NCBI GenBank assembly: GCA_021372775.1
Contig: JAJFTU010000217.1
Coordinates: 1-52,757 of the forward strand
Source: a bacterium
GTDB lineage: Bacteria > Acidobacteriota > Polarisedimenticolia > J045
DNA: 52,757 nt
Direction of reading: 5' to 3'
In this document: piece by piece, positions 5,079 to 32,675 of the stretch
How the letters are laid out: every line of letters begins with the position of its first letter
How positions within the stretch are numbered: position 1 is the stretch's first letter
The notes under the pieces: model-generated
Seen by the model: only the letters and a program-made list of their open reading frames with translations
Databases searched by the model: none
What the model was told of the DNA's origin: nothing
Made by a program: the position numbers and the translations under genes

Positions 5079-5167
5079 TGGTGCCGGAGGAGGGAATCGA
5101 ACCCTCACGCCCGCAAGCGGGCGACGGATTTTGAATCCGTTGCGTCTGCCAGTTCCGCCACTCCGGC
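5079..5167 (-). tRNA. tRNA-Leu (anticodon CAA)
   Basis: An 89-nt class II tRNA on the minus strand. The acceptor stem is GCCGGAG/CTCCGGC, the anticodon loop TTCAAAA gives CAA, the variable arm CGCCCGCTTGCGGGCG is long, the T-loop is GTTCGATTC, and CCA is encoded. It reads UUG. Confidence 0.96.
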
Positions 5168-5539: not shown

Positions 5540-6706
5540 ATGGAGGATTCGTCGATGCAGGCGGGGAACCAGCGCGGCTCGGCGGCGATGATGGCGATCT
5601 TCCTGCTCGGGACGCTCCTCGTCCTGACGCTGACGTCGTTCGTGATGCTGGAGACGAACAACAAGGTCGTCGGCCGGCAGCTCGCGTTCTACGGTCAGGC
5701 TTCGAACGCCGCCCAGGCGGGACTGATCGAGACGCTCTCCTGGTTCCGCCGCCAGACGGCGCAGCCGGTGGCGGCGTTCAACCCCCAGCTCAACCTCGCG
5801 GCGACGACTCCCGTCAACGACACCGACGATTCGACGATCGGCATCGTCCGCGACTACGAGCTCAGCCACACCAACAACACGTGGGCGCGGTACGAAGTCC
5901 GCAAGTCGGAAGTCGTCAACATCACCGCTCTTCGCGGCAAGTCGGGTGTCGGGACTGTCTGGCAGATCGTCAGCCACGGCTACGTCTACGTGCGCAACGA
6001 CCCGACGAAGCCCTACAACCAGGCGCCGAACCGCGTGATCGGCCAGCAGAGCGCCTCGACCGAGCTCCAGCGACTCCAGATGCAACTTCCCGGGACAGCG
6101 GCCGTCATGTCGGGCGGGCGCACGAAGATGGTCTCCAACGCCCGCATCTACGCGGTCAAATCGGGCGAGACCGGAATCCTCTACGCGCCCCCCGCCACGA
6201 ATGCGCCCCAGATTTGCGCCTTCCCCTGCTCGCTCGTCGGCAGTCCTCAGACCGGATCCGTGAATCCGTTCAACGTGTCGATCTCCACCGTCTTCGGCGT
6301 TCTCGAACCGGAGCTGCGCGGCATGGCGGACGTCGTCGGCGCGACGCAGGCCGACCTCCCGAGCCGGCTGCCGGACATGTCGCTGACCGTCGTCACCGGG
6401 AACGCGACCTTCGACGCAACGCATCCGCTGTCCGGCAGCGGAATCCTCGTCGTCGAGGGAAACCTGACCCTCGGGGCGGCGAGCGCCAGCGCGTTCAGCG
6501 GCCTGATCTGGGTCGGCGGAAACTATGTCCAAAACGCCCCGTCGCAAGTCTCCGGAGCGATCGCCACCGTCGGAACCGCGACGTTCCAAGGCTCGGGCGA
6601 CTTCTCCGAAGTCTCGTACGACGGGCAGATGCTCTCCACAATCCGCCAGCAAATGGGGCAGTACCGCTTCTCGCGCGCCATCACGTTCGGCAGCCAGTGG
6701 AGGTGA
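5540..6706 (+). CDS. PilX-like pilus assembly protein
   Basis: A 388-residue protein whose N-terminus (QRGSAAMMAIFLLGTLLVLT) is a short charged leader with RG followed by one hydrophobic helix, as in PilX-type minor pilins. It lacks the Glu+5 of true pilins. The first 80 residues include NAAQAGLIETLSWF, typical of the PilX N domain. The remaining 300 residues are Ser/Thr/Gly-rich and predicted beta-strand, unlike any fold I can name. The ATG at 5540 follows GGAGGGGG; an ATG five codons later is a less likely alternative. First gene of a three-gene operon behind the sigma-54 promoter; the next gene starts four bases after its stop. Confidence 0.75.
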   Translation: MEDSSMQAGNQRGSAAMMAIFLLGTLLVLTLTSFVMLETNNKVVGRQLAFYGQASNAAQAGLIETLSWFRRQTAQPVAAFNPQLNLAATTPVNDTDDSTIGIVRDYELSHTNNTWARYEVRKSEVVNITALRGKSGVGTVWQIVSHGYVYVRNDPTKPYNQAPNRVIGQQSASTELQRLQMQLPGTAAVMSGGRTKMVSNARIYAVKSGETGILYAPPATNAPQICAFPCSLVGSPQTGSVNPFNVSISTVFGVLEPELRGMADVVGATQADLPSRLPDMSLTVVTGNATFDATHPLSGSGILVVEGNLTLGAASASAFSGLIWVGGNYVQNAPSQVSGAIATVGTATFQGSGDFSEVSYDGQMLSTIRQQMGQYRFSRAITFGSQWR

Positions 6707-6710
6707 GGCC

Positions 6711-9700
6711 ATGCTTCGGGACCAACGCGGCAATTCGCTGCTGGAGACCACGTGGGCGCTCTTCCTGTGCCTGATCATCATGCTCGCGGCCGTCACCTTC
6801 ATCGCCAACTCGTTCCGCGGCGCGCACCACTCGAAGGACAAGACGTTCGCGGTGCAGAAGGCGATCGCGATCCTCGAAGAGCTCAAGGGCGTCGTCGAGC
6901 AGAAGGGGGGCGGCGGCACTGCCGTCCTGCTCGACAACTACGACGACGGCGCCGCGTTCAACCCGATCCTGACGACGACGACCGGGATCACCGACCCCGC
7001 TGCGCCGGCCAGCGGCAATCTCCCGAACGGCGGCGCTTGGCGCTACTACCGGCAGGTGTCGGTCACGCGGCTGCCGAACGCGACGGACAACAGCGTGCGG
7101 CTGGTCAACGTGCGGCTCTTCGCGCGGGAGACCGCCGGCGAGAAGATGACCGAGCTGGCCGACGTCGGCGGCCTCGTCCGCACGATCGCCGACCGCTACC
7201 CGCCGACGCAGGTCTACGACGTCTACGCGATCGCCGTCTCGCAGGTTCCCGGCTGGTGGGTCTATCTGGCCAACCTCGTGCCGTTCGTCCAGCAGGCGGT
7301 CAACGACCTCGAGGCCCGCAACCCCGGGCTGGAGTTCCGCACCCACTGGATCACGAATCTCGCCTACGGCCGCGACCTCGAGTACAAGCCGTTCATCAAC
7401 AGCGCGAACGACTCCAGGAGCGACATCAACTGGGTCTATTTCTATCCGGGCACGCTGCCGACCGGCTCGGCGGTGGACCGCTACTACGTGCCGACGCAGT
7501 TCAAGGCGGAGGTGAGCATCGACGGCACGGTGACCAACGGCTACGACGCGACGTCGAATCCGCTGTCGTACGCGGTCGCCGACCAGTACAACAACGCGAT
7601 GCGCTACGACGACGAGCTGAACCTGTACAACCAGCGCAAGGCGGCGGGACTGGAGACCGAGCCGACGTACCGCCTGCTCCTCGACGACATGGTCCTCAAC
7701 CCGTCGAAGTACACGAACGCGATCCTGATCAACCTCCACGGCGAGTTGATCCCGCTGCCGCCGGTGCGGAACTACTCCGACGCGGCGAAGGACCCCGGGA
7801 CGACGGTCCCGAACAAGATGCTCAACATCCGCGCGGTCGCCCATCCGGAGCGGCTGCGGTTCAACACCACCGGCCTCTCGACCGGCTCGATGCCGCATCT
7901 GCGGGTGCGCGTCTATTCCTACCTCTCCGATCCGGGCTCCTCGACGCTGCCGACGCCGAACATCATGTACGACGGCGTGCCGATCACCGTCTTCTTCCCC
8001 AACGTGGACGTGAGTTCGGCCTCGGTCTACGTGATGCCGGGCGGGGTGGACGCCGACGGCACCACCGGGGTGGATCCCTATCCGAAGGCCTGGCTCGCGG
8101 CGCCGACCACGGCGTCGGCGCAGCGGATGTACTACACGGTCCAGTTCGACTCCTCGAGGGGAACCCTCTTCCGGCTCTACAACTCGCCGCTCAAGACCCC
8201 GTCGTTGGAGCAGTTGCCGTCCACCGGCTACAACAACGGCTGCAGCTGGAGCAGTCCGGCGGGCCTTCCGACCACGTATCGTCTGTACGGCATGGACTAC
8301 ATCCCGACGCCGTTCTCGCCCGACTTCACGGAGCGGCCGCTCGGCGAATGCTACTCGCGGCCGAAGAACACGGCGCGCTGGATCATCGACGTTCCCGATT
8401 CGGCGCTGGTCCGGAACACGAAGTACACGATCGAGACGCGCCTCGGCGACGTGACGTTGAGCGACCCGGTCTCCTCGTGGCCCGGGAGCCGCGGCAACCA
8501 CCCGCCCAACCTCTCCCGCACCTACGCCTGGTACGGCGACGACTCGTGGGCCTGGGGAAGCGCGAGCAACGCGCCGGCAATTCCCCCGACGGAGTGGTTC
8601 CAGTACCAAGGGGATCCGCGGCACAACCCGTACGCCGACCTGATCGCGTCGTTCGACTCCACGTCGAACCCCGTCGGCGGCGGCTACAACAACTACTTCA
8701 ACTACTTCACCCCGTCGGCGAGCGGCTACTCGATGTTCACCGAGATGGCCCTGCGGAACGGGTGGCCGACGGACACAAGCGGCAGCAATACCAATAAGGT
8801 CGAGATCGACGTGAACCGGTTCTTCCAACTTGTCCGCACGTCGCTGCTCAAGACGCAGTCGATCTGGACGACGATGACCGGCTTCTCCTACTACTACGTC
8901 GGGCTCGGCAACGAGATCGGCTACGACTCCGCCAACGGGTTCGACTATAGCATTCCGGTATCGACCAAGCCGTTCACCGGCTCCAGCGGATCGGGGTTCG
9001 AGCAGTCGATCACGAGCGGCGGCGTGAAGATCGTCCGCGAGAACACGAGCAACGGCTGGTGGTCGAAGGCGTGGCTCGGCGAGCTCTGGCCGGACGACAA
9101 GTACGCGACCTATTGGGCGCCGTACGGAAACCTGCCCACCGGGACCGGCGCGGGGCGCTACGTCCGGACCCAGCGCGCGAACATCACGACCAACCTGCCT
9201 GCGGGGACGAATTTCTTCAACACCGACCACCGCAGCTGGGAGCGCGGCTGCACCGCCCTCTTCCAAATCGGCTCGGCGAGATCGACGTTCCACCACAATT
9301 CGACGGACGGCCAGACGGGAAACCTGACGACGGACGGCAACGAGATCGCCTCCAACTACCGCTTCCCGATTCCGTCCTCGGCGACGATCAGCCGTCCGTT
9401 CGGGACGACGATCAACAACACGGGCGCCAACCCCGACGGCTTCCTCGACACGCACTACTACGACGGACGCCTGTCGGCCACGGCCCTCGCCACGTACTTC
9501 AACCACCAGAGCGGCTCGTCGGTCAACGGCAGCCAGCTCCTGATGCTGAAGGGGACGCCGACCGTCTCCTCCGGAGCGACGGCGCCGGTCGACCAGGCCT
9601 ACATCGTCGTCAACGGGCTGGACCGCACCGTGTCGAACGGCAGCGCCTTCATCAGCCGCTGGTCGTTCCTTACGCTGATCCACAGCTTCCTGCGGGCCGG

Positions 9701-10148
9701 CGTGCCCGGCGTCACCGGCAGCGGCAACCCGGTCGTCCGTCAGGTGCCGCAGGTCCGCATCTCCACGCCGAACGACCTGACCGACATCCCGAGCACCGCG
9801 ACGACGATCACCGTCAACTGGAGCCTCAACTGGAAGCGGTGGGACGGGCAGAAGTACACCAGCCAGTACCCGGACAGCTTCGCCGACGGCAACGGCGTCT
9901 ACTACGCCGTGATCTACAGCGCGGACGGCGGTTCGACGTGGCGGTACGTGCAGGACGGGGCGGCGGCGACTCCCGGCGCGGCGCCCGATTCGACGCACCG
10001 CGTCGTGAGCAGCGACACGACCGTCAGCCGCGACTGGGACATCTCGGGGCTGGCGCAGGGGAGCTACCTGCTGCGCGTGGAGGCGTATCGTTCCAACATG
10101 GCACTGCACTACGGCTACCATATGCAGAAGATCTTCGTGAAGAGGTGA
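6711..10148 (+). CDS. giant pilin-stem protein (prepilin N-terminus on an 1145-residue ectodomain)
   Basis: The N-terminus MLRDQRG|NSLLETTW has a prepilin-peptidase-like site with Gly at -1 and Glu at +5, then a hydrophobic helix to about residue 31. Normal pilins have 120-250 residues; this one has 1145. The remainder is rich in Tyr, Asn, Thr and Gly. It contains two to three regions with short Cys spacing (NNGCSWSS, GECYS, RGCTALFQ) and ends in an FN3/Ig-like stretch of about 130 residues (ITVNWSLNWKRW ... SGLAQGSYLLRVEA). I do not recognise the central 900 residues. It sits between PilX-like and PilW-like genes, where minor-pilin operons encode PilV and PilY1, so a tip adhesin is my inference. 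Asn at +1 is unusual. Confidence 0.7.
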   Translation: MLRDQRGNSLLETTWALFLCLIIMLAAVTFIANSFRGAHHSKDKTFAVQKAIAILEELKGVVEQKGGGGTAVLLDNYDDGAAFNPILTTTTGITDPAAPASGNLPNGGAWRYYRQVSVTRLPNATDNSVRLVNVRLFARETAGEKMTELADVGGLVRTIADRYPPTQVYDVYAIAVSQVPGWWVYLANLVPFVQQAVNDLEARNPGLEFRTHWITNLAYGRDLEYKPFINSANDSRSDINWVYFYPGTLPTGSAVDRYYVPTQFKAEVSIDGTVTNGYDATSNPLSYAVADQYNNAMRYDDELNLYNQRKAAGLETEPTYRLLLDDMVLNPSKYTNAILINLHGELIPLPPVRNYSDAAKDPGTTVPNKMLNIRAVAHPERLRFNTTGLSTGSMPHLRVRVYSYLSDPGSSTLPTPNIMYDGVPITVFFPNVDVSSASVYVMPGGVDADGTTGVDPYPKAWLAAPTTASAQRMYYTVQFDSSRGTLFRLYNSPLKTPSLEQLPSTGYNNGCSWSSPAGLPTTYRLYGMDYIPTPFSPDFTERPLGECYSRPKNTARWIIDVPDSALVRNTKYTIETRLGDVTLSDPVSSWPGSRGNHPPNLSRTYAWYGDDSWAWGSASNAPAIPPTEWFQYQGDPRHNPYADLIASFDSTSNPVGGGYNNYFNYFTPSASGYSMFTEMALRNGWPTDTSGSNTNKVEIDVNRFFQLVRTSLLKTQSIWTTMTGFSYYYVGLGNEIGYDSANGFDYSIPVSTKPFTGSSGSGFEQSITSGGVKIVRENTSNGWWSKAWLGELWPDDKYATYWAPYGNLPTGTGAGRYVRTQRANITTNLPAGTNFFNTDHRSWERGCTALFQIGSARSTFHHNSTDGQTGNLTTDGNEIASNYRFPIPSSATISRPFGTTINNTGANPDGFLDTHYYDGRLSATALATYFNHQSGSSVNGSQLLMLKGTPTVSSGATAPVDQAYIVVNGLDRTVSNGSAFISRWSFLTLIHSFLRAGVPGVTGSGNPVVRQVPQVRISTPNDLTDIPSTATTITVNWSLNWKRWDGQKYTSQYPDSFADGNGVYYAVIYSADGGSTWRYVQDGAAATPGAAPDSTHRVVSSDTTVSRDWDISGLAQGSYLLRVEAYRSNMALHYGYHMQKIFVKR

Positions 10149-10150
10149 GC

Positions 10151-11161
10151 ATGATTCTCGGCCGGCGGCGGAAGGGGGCGGAGGGAGCGCGCGGGCGGGA
10201 GCGCGGCGTCTCGATGATCGAGATGATCGTCTCGATGGCGCTGCTCACGGTCGTCTCGCTGATCATGTACGAGGTCTACGTCGGTACGATGCGGGCCGGC
10301 GAGTTCCTGGAGAGCCACGGCGACCTGGCGCGGATGGGGCAGGTGGCGCTGAACCAGGTGAAGGCGCAGATCCTGCAGGGCCGGTTCGCCTTCCAGAACG
10401 ACACCCTCGGCACCTCCTATCTCGGCGCGCTGACGCTGAGCCGAGCGGCGCTGGCCGACGGGCGGCTGCCGACGGTCGATCCGAACGGCGTCGTCGCCCA
10501 AGACGACGGAACGACGCATCGGACGGGGAACGCGTTCTTCTTCGCGCGGCAGATCGACCCGATCATGGTCACGGCGAACGGCAAACAGTTGATCGCCGAC
10601 CGGCTTGTCTTCACCTACATCTATCTCGCTCCGGCGGGCGGGGACCGCCTGCTTGGGGCCGACCGCATCGACATGCTCGAGGCGGTGAGCGCGCCGTACG
10701 CCGACGCCGACCAACTGGCCGGCTACGGATCGGACCAAGCCGCGGTCGCCCAAGCGCTCTACAACGCCGGCGTGCAGAAGGCTTGGAAGGTCGGCCAGCC
10801 GCTCAGCCAGGCGTTCTTCAACATCAACGTTTCGACCGGCAGCCTGGGAAGCGCCGTGACTTCGCCGACGATCTCGATGACGGCGCAGACCCTGCTCAAG
10901 GGACTGAACAGCGGCAAGGTCAGCGGCAAGATGGCCTACTCCGTGGCGATGAACACGCCGCCCGGGCCGATCAGCGAAACCGTGGGCGTCTTCGCCTATC
11001 CCGACTCATCGCACCCGCGGTTCCCCGGCGGCTTCGAGGTGCAGTGCGTCGGGCCGTCCGGCGGCCGCAAGGTCGTGATGCGGCTCGTGCTCCTCGGCAA
11101 CTACGGCAAGAAGATCAACGCCCAAGTCAATTTCGTCACCGCGGCGGCCAATCAGATGTAG
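10151..11161 (+). CDS. PilW-like prepilin
   Basis: A 336-residue protein with a classical type IV prepilin leader: RERG|VSMIEMIVSMALLTVV, with Gly-1, Glu+5 and one helix. The length and late position fit PilW-type minor pilins. The C-terminal 280 residues resemble no domain I can name; GGRKVVMRLVLLGNYGKKIN near the end resembles the closing strand of minor pilins. The ATG lies two bases after the stop of the giant pilin gene, so the three genes are one transcriptional unit. It is the last gene, ending at a hairpin shared with the converging radical SAM gene. Confidence 0.78.
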   Translation: MILGRRRKGAEGARGRERGVSMIEMIVSMALLTVVSLIMYEVYVGTMRAGEFLESHGDLARMGQVALNQVKAQILQGRFAFQNDTLGTSYLGALTLSRAALADGRLPTVDPNGVVAQDDGTTHRTGNAFFFARQIDPIMVTANGKQLIADRLVFTYIYLAPAGGDRLLGADRIDMLEAVSAPYADADQLAGYGSDQAAVAQALYNAGVQKAWKVGQPLSQAFFNINVSTGSLGSAVTSPTISMTAQTLLKGLNSGKVSGKMAYSVAMNTPPGPISETVGVFAYPDSSHPRFPGGFEVQCVGPSGGRKVVMRLVLLGNYGKKINAQVNFVTAAANQM

Positions 11162-23538: not shown

Positions 23539-24762
23539 GTGCCCGACTACCGTTGCCGCCTCGCGACCGCCGAAGGGGAACTGCTCGTCCGCGATCTCTC
23601 CGCCGCGGACGAGCTCTCGCTGCGGCGGGAGCTGGAACGCCAGGACTTCCTCGTCCTCGAGATCGCCTCCCGCTCGGGGCTCGGCGCCGCGCTCTCCGGG
23701 CTGCGCCGGCCGAAGCGCCGCCGCGTGCCGATGGGCGAGTTCATCGTCTTCAACCAGGAGTTCGCCGCGCTGGTCCGCGCCGGGCTGCCGATCATCGAGG
23801 CGCTCGAGCTTCTCGGCGAGCGGCGCAAGAACCCCGTGCTGCGCGCGGCGATCGGCGACGTCGTCTCCCGCGTCAAGGGGGGCGAGGCGCTCTCCGACGC
23901 CTTCGAGGCGCAGGGAATCTTCCCGCCGCTCTACTCCAGCACGCTCGCCTCGGGCGAGCGGACCGGCGAGGTGGCGACGGTCATCGCGCGCTACATCGCC
24001 TACGCGCGGACGGTGCAGGGGGTCAAGCGGAAGGTCGGCGCGGCGCTGGTCTACCCGGCGATCCTGATCTGCCTCGCCGTGGTCATCGTCGGCGTGCTGC
24101 TGACGTTCGTGCTGCCGCGGTTCCAGGAGTTCTTCACCGGCTTCGGCGCCGAGCTGCCGCCGATCACGCGGGTCGTCGTCGGCGTCTCCCAGGCGCTGCG
24201 CGGCTACGCCTTCCTCTGGATCCCGGCGCTGGCCCTCGCCGGCGCGGGGTTCTTCCTCTGGCGGCGCACGCCGGCCGGGCGGCGCCGCTTCGAGGCGATC
24301 GTCTACCGCACGCCGCTCGCCGGGCGGATCTCGCGGATGTTCGTCGTCAGCCGCTTCGCGCGCACGATGAGCGCGCTCGTCGCCGGCGGGATCCCGCTGC
24401 CGACCAGCCTCGAGATCACCTCGCGGTCGATCGGCACGCCGATCTTCTCCGCGGCCGTCGCGCGGATCGGCGACAAGATCCGCGAGGGCGCGCCGCTCTG
24501 GAGCTCGGTCGAGGAGACGACGCTCTTCCCGGACCTGCTGGTGGAGATGGTCAAGGTCGGCGAGTCGTCGGGGAACCTCGCCGAGATGCTCGACAACGTC
24601 GGCGACTTCGTGGACCAGGAGATCGAGACCGACCTGCAGCGGCTGGTCTCGCTCGTCGAGCCGCTGCTGCTGGTCTTCATGGCCCTGGTGGTCGGCGGCC
24701 TGCTGCTGGCCATCTACTATCCGCTGCTGCAGGTCTACGCCAACGCCGGCTCGGGGATGTGA
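23539..24762 (+). CDS. gspF: GspF/PilC-family inner-membrane platform protein
   Basis: A 407-residue polytopic platform protein that couples the assembly ATPase to pseudopilin polymerisation. Two GspF domains are seen. The first (about 75-195) has FNQEFAALVRAGLPIIEALE and a helix at 169-195; the second (about 275-400) has SRFARTMSALVAGGIPLPTS, KVGESSGNLAEML and a last helix from about 372. A further helix lies near 222-240. GTG start after GGGGAGG. Three bases separate it from the preceding stop, and gspE follows after 7 bases. Confidence 0.93.
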   Translation: MPDYRCRLATAEGELLVRDLSAADELSLRRELERQDFLVLEIASRSGLGAALSGLRRPKRRRVPMGEFIVFNQEFAALVRAGLPIIEALELLGERRKNPVLRAAIGDVVSRVKGGEALSDAFEAQGIFPPLYSSTLASGERTGEVATVIARYIAYARTVQGVKRKVGAALVYPAILICLAVVIVGVLLTFVLPRFQEFFTGFGAELPPITRVVVGVSQALRGYAFLWIPALALAGAGFFLWRRTPAGRRRFEAIVYRTPLAGRISRMFVVSRFARTMSALVAGGIPLPTSLEITSRSIGTPIFSAAVARIGDKIREGAPLWSSVEETTLFPDLLVEMVKVGESSGNLAEMLDNVGDFVDQEIETDLQRLVSLVEPLLLVFMALVVGGLLLAIYYPLLQVYANAGSGM

Positions 24763-24769
24763 GGGGACG

Positions 24770-26407
<1,638 letters not shown>

Positions 26408-26417
26408 GAGGGACGGG

Positions 26418-27374
26418 ATGACCTTTTCCGACCGTTTGGCCGACTGGGCGGCGCGCTCCACGCCGGAGCGGCTGCGGCGCGCGCGCTGGCTGCAGCCGCG
26501 CTGGCCGCTCGTCGGCGTCGAACTGCGCGCGGACGCGCTCGTCGTCGCCCGCCTCGCGCAGGGGGCGACGGGAACGCGCCTCGCCGGCGTCGCCCGGCGC
26601 GCGCTGCCGGACGGCCTCTACCGCGGCGCGCTGGGCGAGGCGGCGTCGGATCCGGCGGCCCTCGGCGCGGCGCTGGCCGAGGCGCTGCGGATGGCCGGCG
26701 CCGGCAAGGCGGGGCGGATCTCGCTCGCCGTGCCGGACGGCGCGGTCCACGCGGCGATCGTCGATTTCGCCGAGCTGCCCGCCTCGCGCGTCCAGGCGGA
26801 GGAGATGGTCCGTTTCCGGCTGCGCAAGACGCTCCCCGGCGGCGCGGAGGGATGGCGCATGTCGTGGAGCCCGCTCGGCGCGGGCGCCGACGGGCGGCCG
26901 CGCGTCCTCGCCGCGATGGCCCCGGAGCCGGCCTTGGCGTCGATCGAGGCGGCCTGCGCCGCGGCCGGCGTCCGCTGCGGCCTGATCGAGCCGTCGCTCC
27001 TCGCGCTGCGCCGCGCGGTGCGGCGCGCGCTCGATCATCCGGAGGACGTCGGGCTGCTCGACGTGACGGCGGGCGGCTTCGCGCTCCTCGTCGAGCGGGA
27101 AGGGGTCCCGGCGCTGCTGCGGGCGAAGACGGGGGACGCGGCCTCGCTGGAGCGCGATCTCCGCGCGACCTTCGGCTACTACGAGGAACACCTCTTCGGC
27201 GCGGGGCTGACGCGGCTCGTCGTGCGCGCGGCGGCCGACGCCGACCCGGCGCTGGTCGAGGCGGCGCGCGCCGCCGGACGGGCGCAGGAGGTCGTCGCCG
27301 CGGCCGGCTTCGGCGACGGCGCGGACGACGACGCGCTGCCGGCGGTCGGGCTGGCCGCGAGGAGGGCGGCGTGA
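26418..27374 (+). CDS. pilM: PilM/GspL-cytoplasmic-like assembly protein
   Basis: A 318-residue actin-fold (FtsA/PilM-like) protein. It shows PLVGVELRADALVVARL, AVPDGAVHAAIVDFAELP, EEMVRFRLRKTLPGG and GLLDVTAGGFALLVEREG. Such proteins sit in the cytoplasm and bind the PilN N-terminus, linking the ATPase to the periplasmic alignment complex. Sequence identity to standard PilM is low and the call rests on pattern plus position between gspE and a PilN-like gene. Stop and next start overlap (GTGA). Confidence 0.78.
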   Translation: MTFSDRLADWAARSTPERLRRARWLQPRWPLVGVELRADALVVARLAQGATGTRLAGVARRALPDGLYRGALGEAASDPAALGAALAEALRMAGAGKAGRISLAVPDGAVHAAIVDFAELPASRVQAEEMVRFRLRKTLPGGAEGWRMSWSPLGAGADGRPRVLAAMAPEPALASIEAACAAAGVRCGLIEPSLLALRRAVRRALDHPEDVGLLDVTAGGFALLVEREGVPALLRAKTGDAASLERDLRATFGYYEEHLFGAGLTRLVVRAAADADPALVEAARAAGRAQEVVAAAGFGDGADDDALPAVGLAARRAA

Positions 27375-28009
27375 AGCGCGTGGACATCAACCTCGCCGCG
27401 GCGCCGTTCCGCAACGACGCGCCGTGGTGGACGCTGCTCGCGGCGCTGGCGGCGGTCGCCGCGCTCTTCACCGCGGCGAACGTCTGGGCGCTCGCGTCCG
27501 CGCGCTCGCGCGGCGCGGCGCTCGAGGCGGAAATGGCCGGGCACCGCGCGCGGATGACGAAGATGGCCGGCGAGGCCGCGGCGATCTCCGCCCGCCTCTC
27601 CAAGGTGGACCAGAAGCACCTTCTGGCGCAGGCGGCGTTCGTGGACGGCGTGCTCGGGCGGCGCGACTTCTCCTGGACGCGCCTCTTCGACGCGCTGGAG
27701 GAGACGATCCCCTGGAACGTGCGGCTCGTCGCCGTCCGCCCGACGACCCAGAAGGGGGTCGTCTGGATCGACATCGACGGCGAGGCGCGCACCCCGGACG
27801 CGCTGTTCGCGCTGGAACAGGCGCTGCTCGACTCGCCGCGCTTCGGCCGGATCGAGCCGAGCGGGTTCGACCGCCGGACCGGCGAGGACAAGCTCACCTT
27901 CCGGCTGCGCGCCCGCTACGTCCCGGAAGGGGCGCCGCCTCCGGGCGACGAGACGCCGGCCGCCGCGCCGCGGCCCGCGCCGGCGCCGCGCGCGGAGGAG
28001 GGACGATGA
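27371..28009 (+). CDS. pilN: PilN-like protein
   Basis: 212 residues. The cytoplasmic N-terminus RVDINLAAAPFRN is the short motif PilN uses to bind PilM. It is followed by one membrane helix (LLAALAAVAALFTAANVWAL), a coiled-coil segment, and a periplasmic ferredoxin-like fold (SWTRLFDALEETIPWNVRL ... ALFALEQALLDSPRFGRIEP). The last 25 residues are Pro/Ala-rich. Starts with GTG inside the pilM stop and is coupled to pilO by ATGA. Confidence 0.85.
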   Translation: MKRVDINLAAAPFRNDAPWWTLLAALAAVAALFTAANVWALASARSRGAALEAEMAGHRARMTKMAGEAAAISARLSKVDQKHLLAQAAFVDGVLGRRDFSWTRLFDALEETIPWNVRLVAVRPTTQKGVVWIDIDGEARTPDALFALEQALLDSPRFGRIEPSGFDRRTGEDKLTFRLRARYVPEGAPPPGDETPAAAPRPAPAPRAEEGR

Positions 28010-28635
28010 GCCGCCGCCGGTTCGACGCGGCGCGCGACGGCGCGCGCGCGGCGCTCGTCCTGCTCGGCGTGATCGCCGCGAACGTCGTGGTCTACCGCGG
28101 GCTCGTCGTGCCGGCGCGCGCGGCGCTCGACTCGGCCGCGGAGCGGCGGGAGAAGGCGGCGGAGACGGAACGGGGCGCGTCGGTCGCGCTCCAGCGGCTG
28201 CGCGAGGCGGACGGCCGCGTCGCCGCGGCGCGCCGCGGCGTGGAGCGGTTCTACGGCGAGATGCTCGCCACGCCGCGCGAGCGGCTCGTCTCGTTCCAGA
28301 AGACGCTGCTCGCCGTCGGCGCCGACTACGGCGTCGAGCCGTCGCGGTTCGGCGTCTCCGTCGCCGAGCGGGCCGACGAGGGGCTGGAAACGGTCACGGC
28401 GAGCCTGCCGCTCGAGGGGGGCTACGAGAACCTCCGCTCCTTCCTGGCCGATCTCGAGGCGCAGGAGCAGTTCATCGTCGTGCGGCAGGTCGGCCTCGGC
28501 GGCGGCAAGGAAGGGGGGCGCAACCTGCAGCTCGGCGTGGTGGCCGAGACGTACTTCGCCGCCGAGGGGCGCGCCCCCGGCGCGCCGCCGTCGCCGCCGC
28601 GCGCGCCGCGGCCGGAGAAGGGAGCGGCGCGATGA
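28006..28635 (+). CDS. pilO: PilO-like protein
   Basis: 209 residues with one N-terminal helix (ALVLLGVIAANVVVYRGLVV), a coiled coil (about 40-75) and a periplasmic PilO/GspM-type domain with SLPLEGGYENLRSFLADLEA and FIVVRQVGL. It should dimerise with PilN. The Pro-rich tail overlaps the next start by ATGA. Confidence 0.85.
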   Translation: MSRRRFDAARDGARAALVLLGVIAANVVVYRGLVVPARAALDSAAERREKAAETERGASVALQRLREADGRVAAARRGVERFYGEMLATPRERLVSFQKTLLAVGADYGVEPSRFGVSVAERADEGLETVTASLPLEGGYENLRSFLADLEAQEQFIVVRQVGLGGGKEGGRNLQLGVVAETYFAAEGRAPGAPPSPPRAPRPEKGAAR

Positions 28636-29288
28636 AGACCGCGGGCCGGCCCTCGCCGGCGCTCCTCGCGCTGCTCGCCGTCGCCGTCGCCGGCGGCGTC
28701 TACCTCGAGCGGGACAAGCTGTTCGGCGGCGGCGGGAACGACGGCGGCGACGAGCCGAAGATCGTCTTCGACGCGAAGTTCGCGCCGCTGCTCCAACTCC
28801 CCGCGCCGGGCGCCGCGAAGGCCCCGGCGGGCGCGCGCGCCGAGGCGCGGCGCAGCCTCTTCGACTACGGCCTCTCCCCGGAGGCGCTCGCCGCGGAGCG
28901 GGCGCGCAAGGAGGCGGAGGCGCGCGAGGCGGAGCGCCGGCGCAAGGAAGAGGAACGGCGGAAGAAGGAGGCCGCGGCGCTGGCCAAGCTGCCGCCGCCC
29001 CCGCCGCCGCCTCCGCCCCCGCCCGTGCCGCCGAGCTTCAACTACAACTACGTCGGCTACATCGCCCGGCTCGCCGACGGCGGCTTCCTCGGCGTGATCC
29101 AGCGCCGCGGCGGGCCGAACCAACCGACCCGCGTCGTGACGGCGGGGGAGACGATCGACGCCGCCTTCGTCGTGAAGAAGATCGACGTCGGCGCGCTAAC
29201 CGTCGGCTTCGCCGACCCGCAGTTCAAGGACCGCGTCGAGACCGTGAGGCTGGCGGCGGAGCCCGCCGGCAGAGGACCGCGAAGATGA
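28632..29288 (+). CDS. PilP/GspC-like protein
   Basis: 218 residues: an N-terminal signal anchor (LLALLAVAVAGGVYLE), a long charged Glu/Arg/Lys helix (about 95-120) and a run of eleven prolines near residue 125, then a compact beta domain (YVGYIARLADGGFLGVIQRR ... FVVKKIDVGALTVGF) resembling the PilP/GspC homology region that docks on the secretin. The Lys/Arg helix plus proline stalk probably spans the periplasm. Coupled on both sides by ATGA overlaps. Confidence 0.72.
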   Translation: MKTAGRPSPALLALLAVAVAGGVYLERDKLFGGGGNDGGDEPKIVFDAKFAPLLQLPAPGAAKAPAGARAEARRSLFDYGLSPEALAAERARKEAEAREAERRRKEEERRKKEAAALAKLPPPPPPPPPPPVPPSFNYNYVGYIARLADGGFLGVIQRRGGPNQPTRVVTAGETIDAAFVVKKIDVGALTVGFADPQFKDRVETVRLAAEPAGRGPRR

Positions 29289-31804
29289 GCTTCTCCCGCA
29301 CGCTCTTCCGCACGCTCCGCGTCGCCGCGCCCCTCGCGGCCGCGCTTCTCCTCGCCGGCTGCGCCGTCGGCTCGACGGCCTACCGCCGCGGCGACGAGGC
29401 CGCGAAGCGCGGCAACTGGGACGGGGCGGTGCTCGACTACGCCAAGGCGGCGGCGCAGAACCCGCAGAGTCCGCGCTACAAGCTGGCCCTCGCCCAGGCG
29501 AAGCTGCGCGCCTCGACCGCCCACTTCGACCGCGCCAAGCAGTACGTCAAGGCCGGCCAGGAGGAGCTGGCGCTCAAGGAGCTCGAGGAGACGATCATCC
29601 TCGATCCGGGGAACACCTACGCGGCCAACGAGCTGGCGCGGGTGCAGGGGGAGATCGAGCGGCGGCGCCGCGCGCCGTCGGCGATGGACCGCGCCCGCTC
29701 CGCCGCCGAGCGGCGGGCGGAGACGCTCGGGCCGCCGAAGCTCGACCCGAAGTCGAACGTGCGGCTGGCGCTGCGCTTCCCCGACGCGACGGTCGGCGAG
29801 GTCTACGAGACGCTGTCCAAGACCAGCGGGATCAACTTCCTCTACGACGACAAGCTCGACCTCAAGAAGAAGATCTCGGTGGACCTGTCGAACCTGACCT
29901 TCGACAAGGCGCTCGACGTGCTGATGCTGATGAACCGCCACAGCTACAAGGTGGTGGACGACCACTCGATCCTCGTCTACGAGGACTCGGTCCAGAAGCA
30001 CAAGGAGCACGACGACCTCGTCATCCGCACCTTCTACCTCTCGAACGCGGAGACGCAGGAGATCCAGACGCTGCTGCGCCAGCTGCTGGAGATGCGCCGC
30101 CTCGCCGAGAACAAGAACCTCAACGCGATCACCGTCCGCGACACCCCCGACCGGATCAAGGTCGCGGAGCGGATCGTCAAGGCGAACGACAAGTCGAAGG
30201 GGGAGATCCTCGTCGACATCGAGCTGCTCGAACTGGACCGCGCGACGGAGCAGAAGCTGGGGTTCGACCTGACCTCGAAGTCGCTCGCCCTGACCTTCGG
30301 CGACGGCAAGCAGTCGGTCCCGCTGAACAACCTCGACCGGCTGCGCCAGTCGGGCGCCTGGTCGGTCGGGCCGATCCCCTCGGTCACGCTCGACTTCCTG
30401 CACTCCGACTCCGACAACAAGACGATCGCGCGGCCGCAGCTGCGGATCCTCGAGGGGGACACGGGGAAGATCACCATCGGCGACCGCGTGCCGATTCCCT
30501 CGACGAGCTACAACATCAACCAGACGGTCGGCAGCAACATCGTGCCGATCACCTCCTACACCTACCAGAACGTGGGGATCATCGTCGAGGTCAAGCCGCG
30601 CGTGCACCACAACAAGGAGGTCACGCTCGACCTCAAGGTCGAGGTCTCCTCGATCGCCGGCTACGTCACGCAGAGCAACGGCCCCTCGCAGCCGATCATC
30701 GGCACCCGCTCGGTGGAGACGACGATCCGGCTGCAGGACGGCGAGACGAACATGCTCGCCGGCCTGATCAAGGAGGAGGACCAGAAGTCGCTGAGCGGCG
30801 TTCCGGGGCTCTCCCAGATCCCGCTGCTCAAGCGGATCTTCGGCTCGACCGACGACCAGGCGAAGAGCACCGACATCGTCCTCTCGATCACCCCGCACAT
30901 CGTGCGCACGCCGAACATCGAGCCGATCGACCTCGCCCCGCTCTGGGTCGGCTCGGAGGACAACGTCCAGCTGCGCGGCGTGGCGCGGAACGCGCTCGGC
31001 GAGAGCCCGTTCTCGACGACGAACGTGCCCTGGGACGAGATCGACCGCGAGCTGTTCGGCGACCGGCCGGCGGCCGAGGAGGCCAAGCCGGAGGAGCGGC
31101 CGGAGGCGAAGGACGCGGCGAAGCCGGGCGCGAAGACGGAGACGAAGAACGGCGGCAGGACGCCGGCCAAGGAGGCGGGGAGGCCGGAGGCGGCCGACGC
31201 GGCGAAGAGCGGCGCGGCGACCACCCCCTCGACCGTCGCGCCGAAGCCGTCGTCGCCGGCCCCCGTTCCCGTGCAAACGCCGGGGGCGCCGACCGCGGTC
31301 CCCGTGGACGCGGGCGCCGCGCCGCCGCCGACGCCGGAGACGCCCGCGGCGACGACGCCGGCCGCGGAGACGACCAAGCCGAGGACCGTCGCCGACGTCT
31401 GGCTGCAGCCGGAGGCGACGCGCGTCGCCGCGGGGGACGCGGTCGCGGTGGACGTGATGGTCGGCTCGGCGGACAACGCCGGCGCGGTCAACTTCCAGCT
31501 CCGCTACGACCCGGCCGTGCTGCAGTTCGCGCCGCCGGCCGAGCCCGGAGACTTTCTCGAGCAGGGCGGGACCCCGGTGGACCTGCAGGTCGTCGAAGGG
31601 GCGGAAGGGGGGCTGGTCGTCCTCTCCGCGGCGCGGATGGGAAGGACCGGCGCCACGGGCGGCGGCCGCGTCGCGCGGCTGATGTTCGTGGCGATCGCCC
31701 CCGGCTCCGCCAACTTCTCCTTCGCCTCGGGGCAGGTGCGCGGCGTGGACGGCACGCCGCAGCAGGCCTCGTTCCGCGAGGCGGCGGTCGAGGTTTCCCC
31801 GTGA
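29285..31804 (+). CDS. gspD: secretin (GspD/PilQ family) lipoprotein with C-terminal cohesin-like domain
   Basis: An 839-residue outer-membrane pore. Lipobox LLLAGC puts the lipidated Cys at 26. TPR repeats occupy about 36-122. A secretin N domain lies near 155-250 (VGEVYETLSKTSGINFLYDD, SNLTFDKALDVLMLM) with a second N-type domain after it. The secretin core runs to about 541 (GKITIGDRVPIPST, QNVGIIVEVKPRV, LSGVPGLSQIPLLKRIFGS). A Pro/Ala/Thr/Lys linker of about 100 residues then leads to a cohesin-like beta-sandwich (701-839: VDVMVGSADNAGAVNFQLRY ... GGRVARLMFVAI). Ordinary secretins stop after the pore. Coupled to pilP-like and pseudopilin genes. Confidence 0.92.
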   Translation: MSFSRTLFRTLRVAAPLAAALLLAGCAVGSTAYRRGDEAAKRGNWDGAVLDYAKAAAQNPQSPRYKLALAQAKLRASTAHFDRAKQYVKAGQEELALKELEETIILDPGNTYAANELARVQGEIERRRRAPSAMDRARSAAERRAETLGPPKLDPKSNVRLALRFPDATVGEVYETLSKTSGINFLYDDKLDLKKKISVDLSNLTFDKALDVLMLMNRHSYKVVDDHSILVYEDSVQKHKEHDDLVIRTFYLSNAETQEIQTLLRQLLEMRRLAENKNLNAITVRDTPDRIKVAERIVKANDKSKGEILVDIELLELDRATEQKLGFDLTSKSLALTFGDGKQSVPLNNLDRLRQSGAWSVGPIPSVTLDFLHSDSDNKTIARPQLRILEGDTGKITIGDRVPIPSTSYNINQTVGSNIVPITSYTYQNVGIIVEVKPRVHHNKEVTLDLKVEVSSIAGYVTQSNGPSQPIIGTRSVETTIRLQDGETNMLAGLIKEEDQKSLSGVPGLSQIPLLKRIFGSTDDQAKSTDIVLSITPHIVRTPNIEPIDLAPLWVGSEDNVQLRGVARNALGESPFSTTNVPWDEIDRELFGDRPAAEEAKPEERPEAKDAAKPGAKTETKNGGRTPAKEAGRPEAADAAKSGAATTPSTVAPKPSSPAPVPVQTPGAPTAVPVDAGAAPPPTPETPAATTPAAETTKPRTVADVWLQPEATRVAAGDAVAVDVMVGSADNAGAVNFQLRYDPAVLQFAPPAEPGDFLEQGGTPVDLQVVEGAEGGLVVLSAARMGRTGATGGGRVARLMFVAIAPGSANFSFASGQVRGVDGTPQQASFREAAVEVSP

Positions 31805-32259
31805 CGAAAGCGCGCGGCCTGACGCTCGTGGAGCTCGTCCTCGCCATCGCCCTGCTCGCGGCGATGGCCGGGATCGCGCTTCCCGTGGCGCACACCATGG
31901 AACGCCGCGCGCGCGAACTCGAGCTGCGTCGGGACCTGCGGGCGATGCGCCGCGCGATCGACGAGTACCACTACGTGCTGCAGTCGGTGCCGTCGGCGAA
32001 GCGGAACGCGACCGCCGGGGACTGGCCGGAGAAGCTGGACGACCTGGTCGAAGGGCTCGATCTCGGCCTGGCCAAGGAGGTCAAGGTGAAGTTCCTGCGG
32101 CGGATCCCGCGCGATCCTTTGACCGGCAAGGACGAGTGGACGTGCCGCTCCTCGAAGCAAGGGCCGGAGGATGATTCCTGGGACGGGCAGAACGTCTTCG
32201 ACGTCCGTTCCAAGGCCGAAGGGAAGGGGCTCGACGGCCGCCCCTACAGCGAATGGTGA
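31801..32259 (+). CDS. GspG/PulG-type pseudopilin 1
   Basis: A 152-residue pseudopilin with leader KARG|LTLVELVLAIALLAAM (Gly-1, Glu+5), followed by a long helix (RELRR...). The globular part has a GspG-like YHYVLQSVPSA and ends PRDPLTGKDEWTC ... FDVRSKAEGKGLDG, the Ca-binding-loop region of major pseudopilins. The GTG start overlaps the secretin stop. The next gene encodes a close relative. Confidence 0.88.
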   Translation: MTKARGLTLVELVLAIALLAAMAGIALPVAHTMERRARELELRRDLRAMRRAIDEYHYVLQSVPSAKRNATAGDWPEKLDDLVEGLDLGLAKEVKVKFLRRIPRDPLTGKDEWTCRSSKQGPEDDSWDGQNVFDVRSKAEGKGLDGRPYSEW

Positions 32260-32270
32260 GGGCGGAGACG

Positions 32271-32675
32271 ATGCGCGCCGAGCGAAGGAAACGCGGCCGC
32301 GGCTTCACGCTGGTCGAGCTGATGATCGTGGTGGCGCTGATCGGCCTGCTGGTCGGCATCGCCCTCCCGACCTACAAGCACGCCCAGGCGAAGGCCAAGG
32401 AGGCGGTGCTGCGGGAGAACCTGTTCATCCTGCGGCAGACGATCGACCAGTACTTCGCCGACAAGGGGTACTACCCGGCGAGCCTGCAGGCGCTCGTGGA
32501 CGAGAAGTACATCCGCAAGCTGCCGGTGGACCCGATCACGCGCCAGGCGGACTGGGAGGAGGTCCCGGCCGACACCGGCACGAACGTCGATCCGAACCAG
32601 CCGGCGGGCGTGTGGGACGTGAAGAGCCGCGCCCAAGGACAGACCGAGGACGGCGTCGGCTACGGCGAACTCTAA
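32271..32675 (+). CDS. gspG: GspG-type major pseudopilin 2
   Basis: About 134 residues with a textbook prepilin signal RGRG|FTLVELMIVVALIGLLVG (Phe+1, Glu+5). The globular domain has QYFADKGYYPASLQALVDEK, KLPVDPITRQADW and VWDVKSRAQG, the classical GspG signature, so it is the better candidate for major pseudopilin. I prefer the ATG at 32271 (GAGG nine bases upstream); an in-frame ATG at 32253, overlapping the previous gene, adds six residues. Confidence 0.92.
   Translation: MRAERRKRGRGFTLVELMIVVALIGLLVGIALPTYKHAQAKAKEAVLRENLFILRQTIDQYFADKGYYPASLQALVDEKYIRKLPVDPITRQADWEEVPADTGTNVDPNQPAGVWDVKSRAQGQTEDGVGYGEL

Follow-up and report, generated by a model that had tools for sequence, protein, structure and literature searches.

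A giant prepilin, probably of the PilV/GspI type, and its modular family of candidate tip pilins in at least four bacterial phyla

The Locus

The window analysed here, a stretch of 52,757 nucleotides, comes from an Acidobacteriota metagenome genome that is 99.6% complete and whose relatives include Thermoanaerobaculia. It holds a tightly packed cassette of three prepilin-type genes, in the order PilX/GspK-like, PilV/GspI-type giant and PilW/GspJ-like (Table 1), from which a FimU/GspH partner is absent. The giant gene starts 4 bases past the stop of the PilX-like gene and ends 2 bases before the PilW-like gene. A GGAGG ribosome site stands upstream of its ATG, and the frame is open with no stop and translates to exactly 1145 amino acids, about eight times the usual size of a pilus subunit. 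The GC content is 0.92 at the third codon position and 0.51 at the second, and a chance open frame is ruled out by homologues, which share 43–53% identity inside the phylum and as little as about 31% in other phyla.

Table 1. Features of the window and of related loci
Feature	Position	Strand	Basis or remark
tRNA-Leu(CAA) adjoining the cassette	5079..5167	-	in relatives, found beside the alternative minor-pilin operon too
PilX/GspK-like minor prepilin, 388 aa, lacking Glu +5 (QRG/SAAMMAIFLL), probable tip-complex cap	5540..6706	+	homologue in 55/80 loci
Giant PilV/GspI-type modular prepilin, 1145 aa	6711..10148	+	sequence, homologues, stem models of relatives, structure model
Class III leader peptide MLRDQRG, predicted cleavage after Gly7	6711..6731	+	sequence; Gly in 66/66 rows
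Pilin stem, residues 8-165: long helix 10-64, three-strand sheet 112-157	6732..7205	+	structure model; relatives match PF07963, GspI, PilV
Core module, residues 166-1010, unmatched in sequence and fold searches	7206..9740	+	profile and PDB searches, structure model, alignment
C-terminal beta-sandwich resembling FN3/Ig, residues 1011-1145, with conserved LHYxxHxxxxxIxR at its end	9741..10145	+	structure model
PilW/GspJ-like minor prepilin, 336 aa, Glu +5	10151..11161	+	N_methyl E 1e-5; directly downstream in 63/80 loci
T2SS/T4-filament assembly cluster: GspF, GspE, PilM/N/O-like frames, GspD secretin, two GspG-type pilins	23539..32672	+	profile matches
Propeller-bearing PilW-type giants of relatives	L144:7111-10266; L146:679-3834; L145:4212-7367		FimU-PilV-PilW-PilX operon

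The Pilin Stem

The giant protein opens with a short charged leader, MLRDQRG, then NSLLETTWALFLCLIIMLAAVTFIA, and has one hydrophobic helix, with Gly at −1, Asn at +1 and Glu at +5 (residue 12, E12). The prepilin site and single N-terminal helix described in the initial annotation were borne out by the sequence and by an alignment of 72 family members, where Gly −1 is found in all 66 rows having a residue there and Glu +5 in 67 of 68, the remaining row having Asp. The Asn at +1, also singled out there as uncommon, proved to be a peculiarity of this one member and not of the family, in which the position is mostly Phe (41 rows), Met (7) or Leu (6).

The Pfam N_methyl model (PF07963) has no match in the window protein itself. 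It was matched above its cut-off by the N-termini of six of the eight relatives searched (L061, L082, L083, L056, L090 and L005; L numbers denote loci, G numbers genomes), with a best E of 2.8e-8, and fell below it in L052 and L072. The usual best subfamily models for the stems of relatives are GspI, PilV and ComGE, with the PilV and GspI equivalog models (TIGR02523, TIGR01707) scoring E values of 1e-5 to 1e-3, under their cut-offs. On the strength of these matches among relatives, the stem is of the prepilin type and, within it, most probably of the I/V (GspI/PilV) type. The predicted model agrees, in that it places a long helix on a small beta-sheet, as in type IV prepilins.

The Large Module

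Searches of Pfam, NCBIfam and PDB sequences returned no match for the window protein, with no vWA, lectin, PA14 or propeller module among the Pfam and NCBIfam results; BNR gave a weak match (E 0.07) in two relatives only. A structure model built from 9 sequences was poor (pLDDT 49), and no conclusions were drawn from it; that built from 72 sequences reached a pLDDT of 88.5 and a pTM of 0.86. Model m98769f9c8a54 has a helix at residues 10–64, strands at 112–157, a mixed region from 166, a beta-rich part at about 370–610 and a loop-rich one to about 900, and then the C-terminal beta-sandwich. Some 980 residues with a confidently predicted fold lie beyond the stem, which gives the protein the build of a modular pilin, a stem with a bulky module. 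A fold search of the model against PDB chains and viral models found nothing at E<=0.001, and the weaker matches, to Ig/beta-sandwich folds, transglutaminase and PilB (Foldseek E 0.023), are not read as homology, so that the central residues, which had matched nothing recognisable to begin with, stayed without a match over threshold in profile, PDB sequence and fold searches alike. A caspase-like reading of residues 166–360, where a strand-helix-strand pattern is followed by LINLHGE, was rejected, as this stretch has no conserved Cys and no such fold was among the matches listed.

The module is well conserved across the family. About 40 of its positions are invariant, rich in D, H, R, N and E, and include D170, H212, R221, D291, N294, R298, N341, G344, R353, D357, H378, K552, N553, E628 and D635, with H343 and E345 nearly so; they are densest at residues 151–400, 601–650 and 701–750. 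Over 250 locus pairs the median identity was 0.41 for the core, above the PilX-like protein (0.36), the stem (0.34) and the PilW-like protein (0.30), values that come from unequal alignments and are to be read as a trend only. That the module exceeds both stem and neighbours in conservation suggests a fixed ligand or catalysis, and speaks against an adhesin that varies.

The C-terminal domain of the giant moves between pilin stems. In G079 (L039:7913-8491, minus strand), a small extra prepilin in a 193-aa frame lies between the giant and PilW and carries only this domain.

The Family and Its Neighbours

Among 396 genomes of the phylum, full-length or contig-cut relatives of the giant were found in nine (G000, G006, G007, G011, G020, G045, G067, G079 and G267), the remaining matches covering the N-terminal stem alone. 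A contig scan with one genome per species gave nothing with a single-sequence query; with an alignment as query it found 87 relatives, of which 80 were kept. These 80 loci belong mostly to Planctomycetota, followed by Acidobacteriota, Elusimicrobiota (including Endomicrobiales), candidate division FCPU426 and unnamed bacteria, and some genomes, such as JAJDEN, JASJDY and JAFGQW, have two of them. An approximate tree brings the members of each named phylum together and places the window protein with the Acidobacteriota; three Planctomycetota rows are the exception, falling outside the main planctomycete group. The giant prepilin is thus a member of an undescribed modular pilin family, with a predicted place at the filament tip, found in at least four bacterial phyla; no description of it was found in the open-licence literature.

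The neighbours recur as well. A PilX-like homologue lies directly upstream of the giant in 44 of the 80 loci and somewhere in the locus in 55, and a PilW-like gene lies directly downstream in 63, with homologues elsewhere in the locus in more; several loci stop at contig ends. The position between PilX-like and PilW-like genes, noted at the outset, is real and recurs in the family, and together with the GspI, PilV and ComGE matches of the stems it upholds the proposal that the giant fills the PilV slot in its minor-pilin operon. One subgroup of planctomycetes has a divergent ABC transporter upstream where others have the PilX-like gene, and past the three genes there are no generally conserved neighbours across the family loci. 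One locus (L095) has three PilX-like genes upstream of the giant, which suggests repeated cassettes.

The PilX-like proteins inspected beside giants are without Glu5, as is the capping subunit of known tip complexes, and a J/W-type subunit with a Glu5-less K/X-type partner is the make-up of such a complex (PMC10191384).

A Candidate Tip Pilin in Place of PilY1

The explanation we favour, with reasonable confidence, is that the giant is a modular I/V-type minor pilin whose module of about 980 residues sits at the filament tip, binds a conserved target and replaces PilY1. Prepilin peptidase would remove the 7-residue leader, and the stem (helix and small sheet, residues 8–165) would assemble with both neighbours, the PilW/J-like one and the PilX/K-like one that lacks Glu5, to form the tip complex that initiates a type IV filament. 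The tip location, which we infer from these partners, would have the module leave through the secretin and be displayed at the distal end, where it may bind a surface polymer, a substrate or a component of the cell envelope, so that pilus pulling would act on the bound target. Binding at the filament tip is most probably what the module does; adhesion, for a module with no known binding domain, is suggested by analogy. As for the machinery, the host genome has a locus of the pilB-pilT-pilC-pilA type and four PilT-family proteins over the cut-off, which makes a retractile pilus likely from its gene content.

In diderm type IV pili the tip effector is usually assumed to be PilY1, a separate protein whose place the giant would take. 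PF05567, the PilY1 model, has no match in the window protein or anywhere in the window's genome. It was found in 115 of the 396 genomes of the phylum, most of which are without a detectable PilY1, and in none of the nine giant-bearing genomes versus 115 of the 387 others, a marginal difference (one-sided p 0.044) that ignores kinship. The initial annotation had inferred a tip adhesin fused directly onto a minor pilin. A large module on a pilin stem does stand, in a genome with no detectable PilY1; the module is not PilY1 or a recognised adhesin, with nothing over threshold for PF05567, Pfam, NCBIfam or PDB sequence and fold, and its adhesion would be an extrapolation. The closeness to PilY1 in length that was pointed out is no more than an analogy.

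Several known systems come near to this arrangement. Modular pilins as such are well accepted: a 2021 survey (PMC8179133) gives 264 recognised architectures, the largest example having 860 residues, and since it required a recognisable InterPro domain, it would miss the present family. PilB of Streptococcus sanguinis (PMC8179133; PDB 7ba2) shares the small stem, the bulky module and a putative site at the tip only, but it carries a vWA domain with a metal site as its module, whereas that of the giant is an unmatched one of some 980 residues on an I/V-type subunit. The PilY1/PilC proteins that go with the FimU-PilV-PilW-PilX priming complex (PMC7541494) are effectors of about 1000 residues, encoded with minor pilins and with a proposed tip role, as here; unlike the giant, PilY1 is a separate non-pilin protein with the PF05567 beta-propeller. 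CpaL of Caulobacter crescentus (PMC12607857) also has a minor pilin-like stem, a large module and a predicted tip trio with two minor pilins, but it is a Tad-pilus protein of 626 residues with a vWA domain, and no vWA was found in the window protein. The GspI-GspJ-GspK tip of type II secretion has the same three subunit types, its K-like one without Glu5, although there the I subunit has no giant module.

The type II comparison leads to a different user of the trio, as the T2SS-like cluster in the window, and not a pilus, could employ the giant. The trio would then be the I-J-K tip of the machine encoded at 23.5–32.7 kb, and the module would recognise and push secreted proteins. We regard this as unlikely. 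In its favour, the window also encodes GspE, GspF, GspD and a pair of GspG-type pilins in a cluster with no recognisable I/J/K pseudopilins of its own, the secretin and the giant share one contig in G267, and T4P and T2SS tip sets are interchangeable (PMC10191384). Against this, secretin and giant lie about 1.5 Mb apart in the complete genome G020, and relatives that lack the giant (G001, G005 and G009) have the GspD orthologue just as well. Ordinary GspI proteins are also of a very different size, about 100–150 aa.

The conservation of the module raises the possibility, more doubtful again, that it is an enzyme, for example a polymer hydrolase, held at the tip or the cell surface; the invariant D, H, R, N and E positions and an identity above that of the stem would fit, but no enzyme family or fold matched and the invariant residues may be structural. 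It is very improbable that the prepilin pathway serves for membrane insertion only, with the giant staying outside the filament as an envelope protein. Large prepilin-type proteins of unknown role do exist, as in the Verru_Chthon cassettes, but Glu5 and the stem are kept in nearly all members of the present family and the PilW and PilX partners recur across phyla; the Verru_Chthon models (TIGR02596/02598/02599) have no match in the window trio and only sub-threshold stem matches in relatives. A true PilY1 fused to a pilin, to which position and length had pointed, is largely refuted and has hardly any probability left, as neither PF05567, common enough to occur in those 115 genomes, nor a PilY1-like or propeller fold was matched by the giant or its model.

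A broader form of the tip-pilin reading is offered tentatively, as plausible and still short of probable: a module of about 980 residues with a new overall fold on an I/V-type tip pilin, in a cassette kept in at least four phyla, would serve instead of PilY1 as the working head of type IV filaments, and the conservation of the module would point to one universal ligand or to catalysis at the tip. Taken with the PilW-type propeller giants of relatives (Table 1), the family suggests that some lineages graft the effector directly onto a core tip pilin. A tip function without PilY1 becomes testable with concrete genes, as in the complete genome of Acidobacteria bacterium Mor1 (CP011806), and the module, with its invariant residues, is a large unsolved fold.

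The tRNA-Leu Site and a Second Giant Pilin

The FabF-ErpA-tRNA-Leu-rSAM site that holds the cassette in the window holds another minor-pilin operon in genomes of the same family. The stretch from the radical-SAM gene to ErpA/FabF, whose radical-SAM side comes from G005 and ErpA/FabF side from its congener G010, has genes for FimU-like and PilV-like (223 aa) proteins, a PilW-type prepilin of about 1006 aa, a PilX-like protein and a GGDEF protein, in the orientation opposite to that of the window cassette. The same operon start stands beside the radical-SAM gene in G008 and G006, cut by contig ends, and G009 has the flanks and the tRNA with no such operon at the site.

The PilW-type prepilin carries FN3-like and YCF48/BNR propeller repeats in a module of about 900 residues. 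In G005, G010, G003 and G008 it resembles the giant in its length of about 1000 aa, its prepilin stem and its minor-pilin operon, at the same site in several relatives; it differs in that the module sits on a W/J-type stem, and the giant has a different fold on an I/V-type stem. It was found in 10 of 12 genomes of the family, some copies being cut by contig ends, and is absent from the window's genome. Three genomes (G006, G007 and G011) carry both giant types, which are not strict alternatives. The tRNA-Leu separates the positions of the two operons, so a one-for-one swap is less likely than independent insertions. The giant PilV and the propeller PilW suggest two different grafts for one tip-effector role, with a single locus able to vary in whether V or W carries the graft.

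In several relatives, too, minor-pilin operons adjoin the tRNA-Leu(CAA), a possible insertion hot spot; it is not claimed as a classical attachment site, since the cassette lies on its 5' side. At the contig start, ARAGORN places a pair of tRNA-Ser(CGA) genes, one on each strand, less than 800 bases apart (10–99 and 676–765 of the window), possibly a repeat or an assembly artefact.
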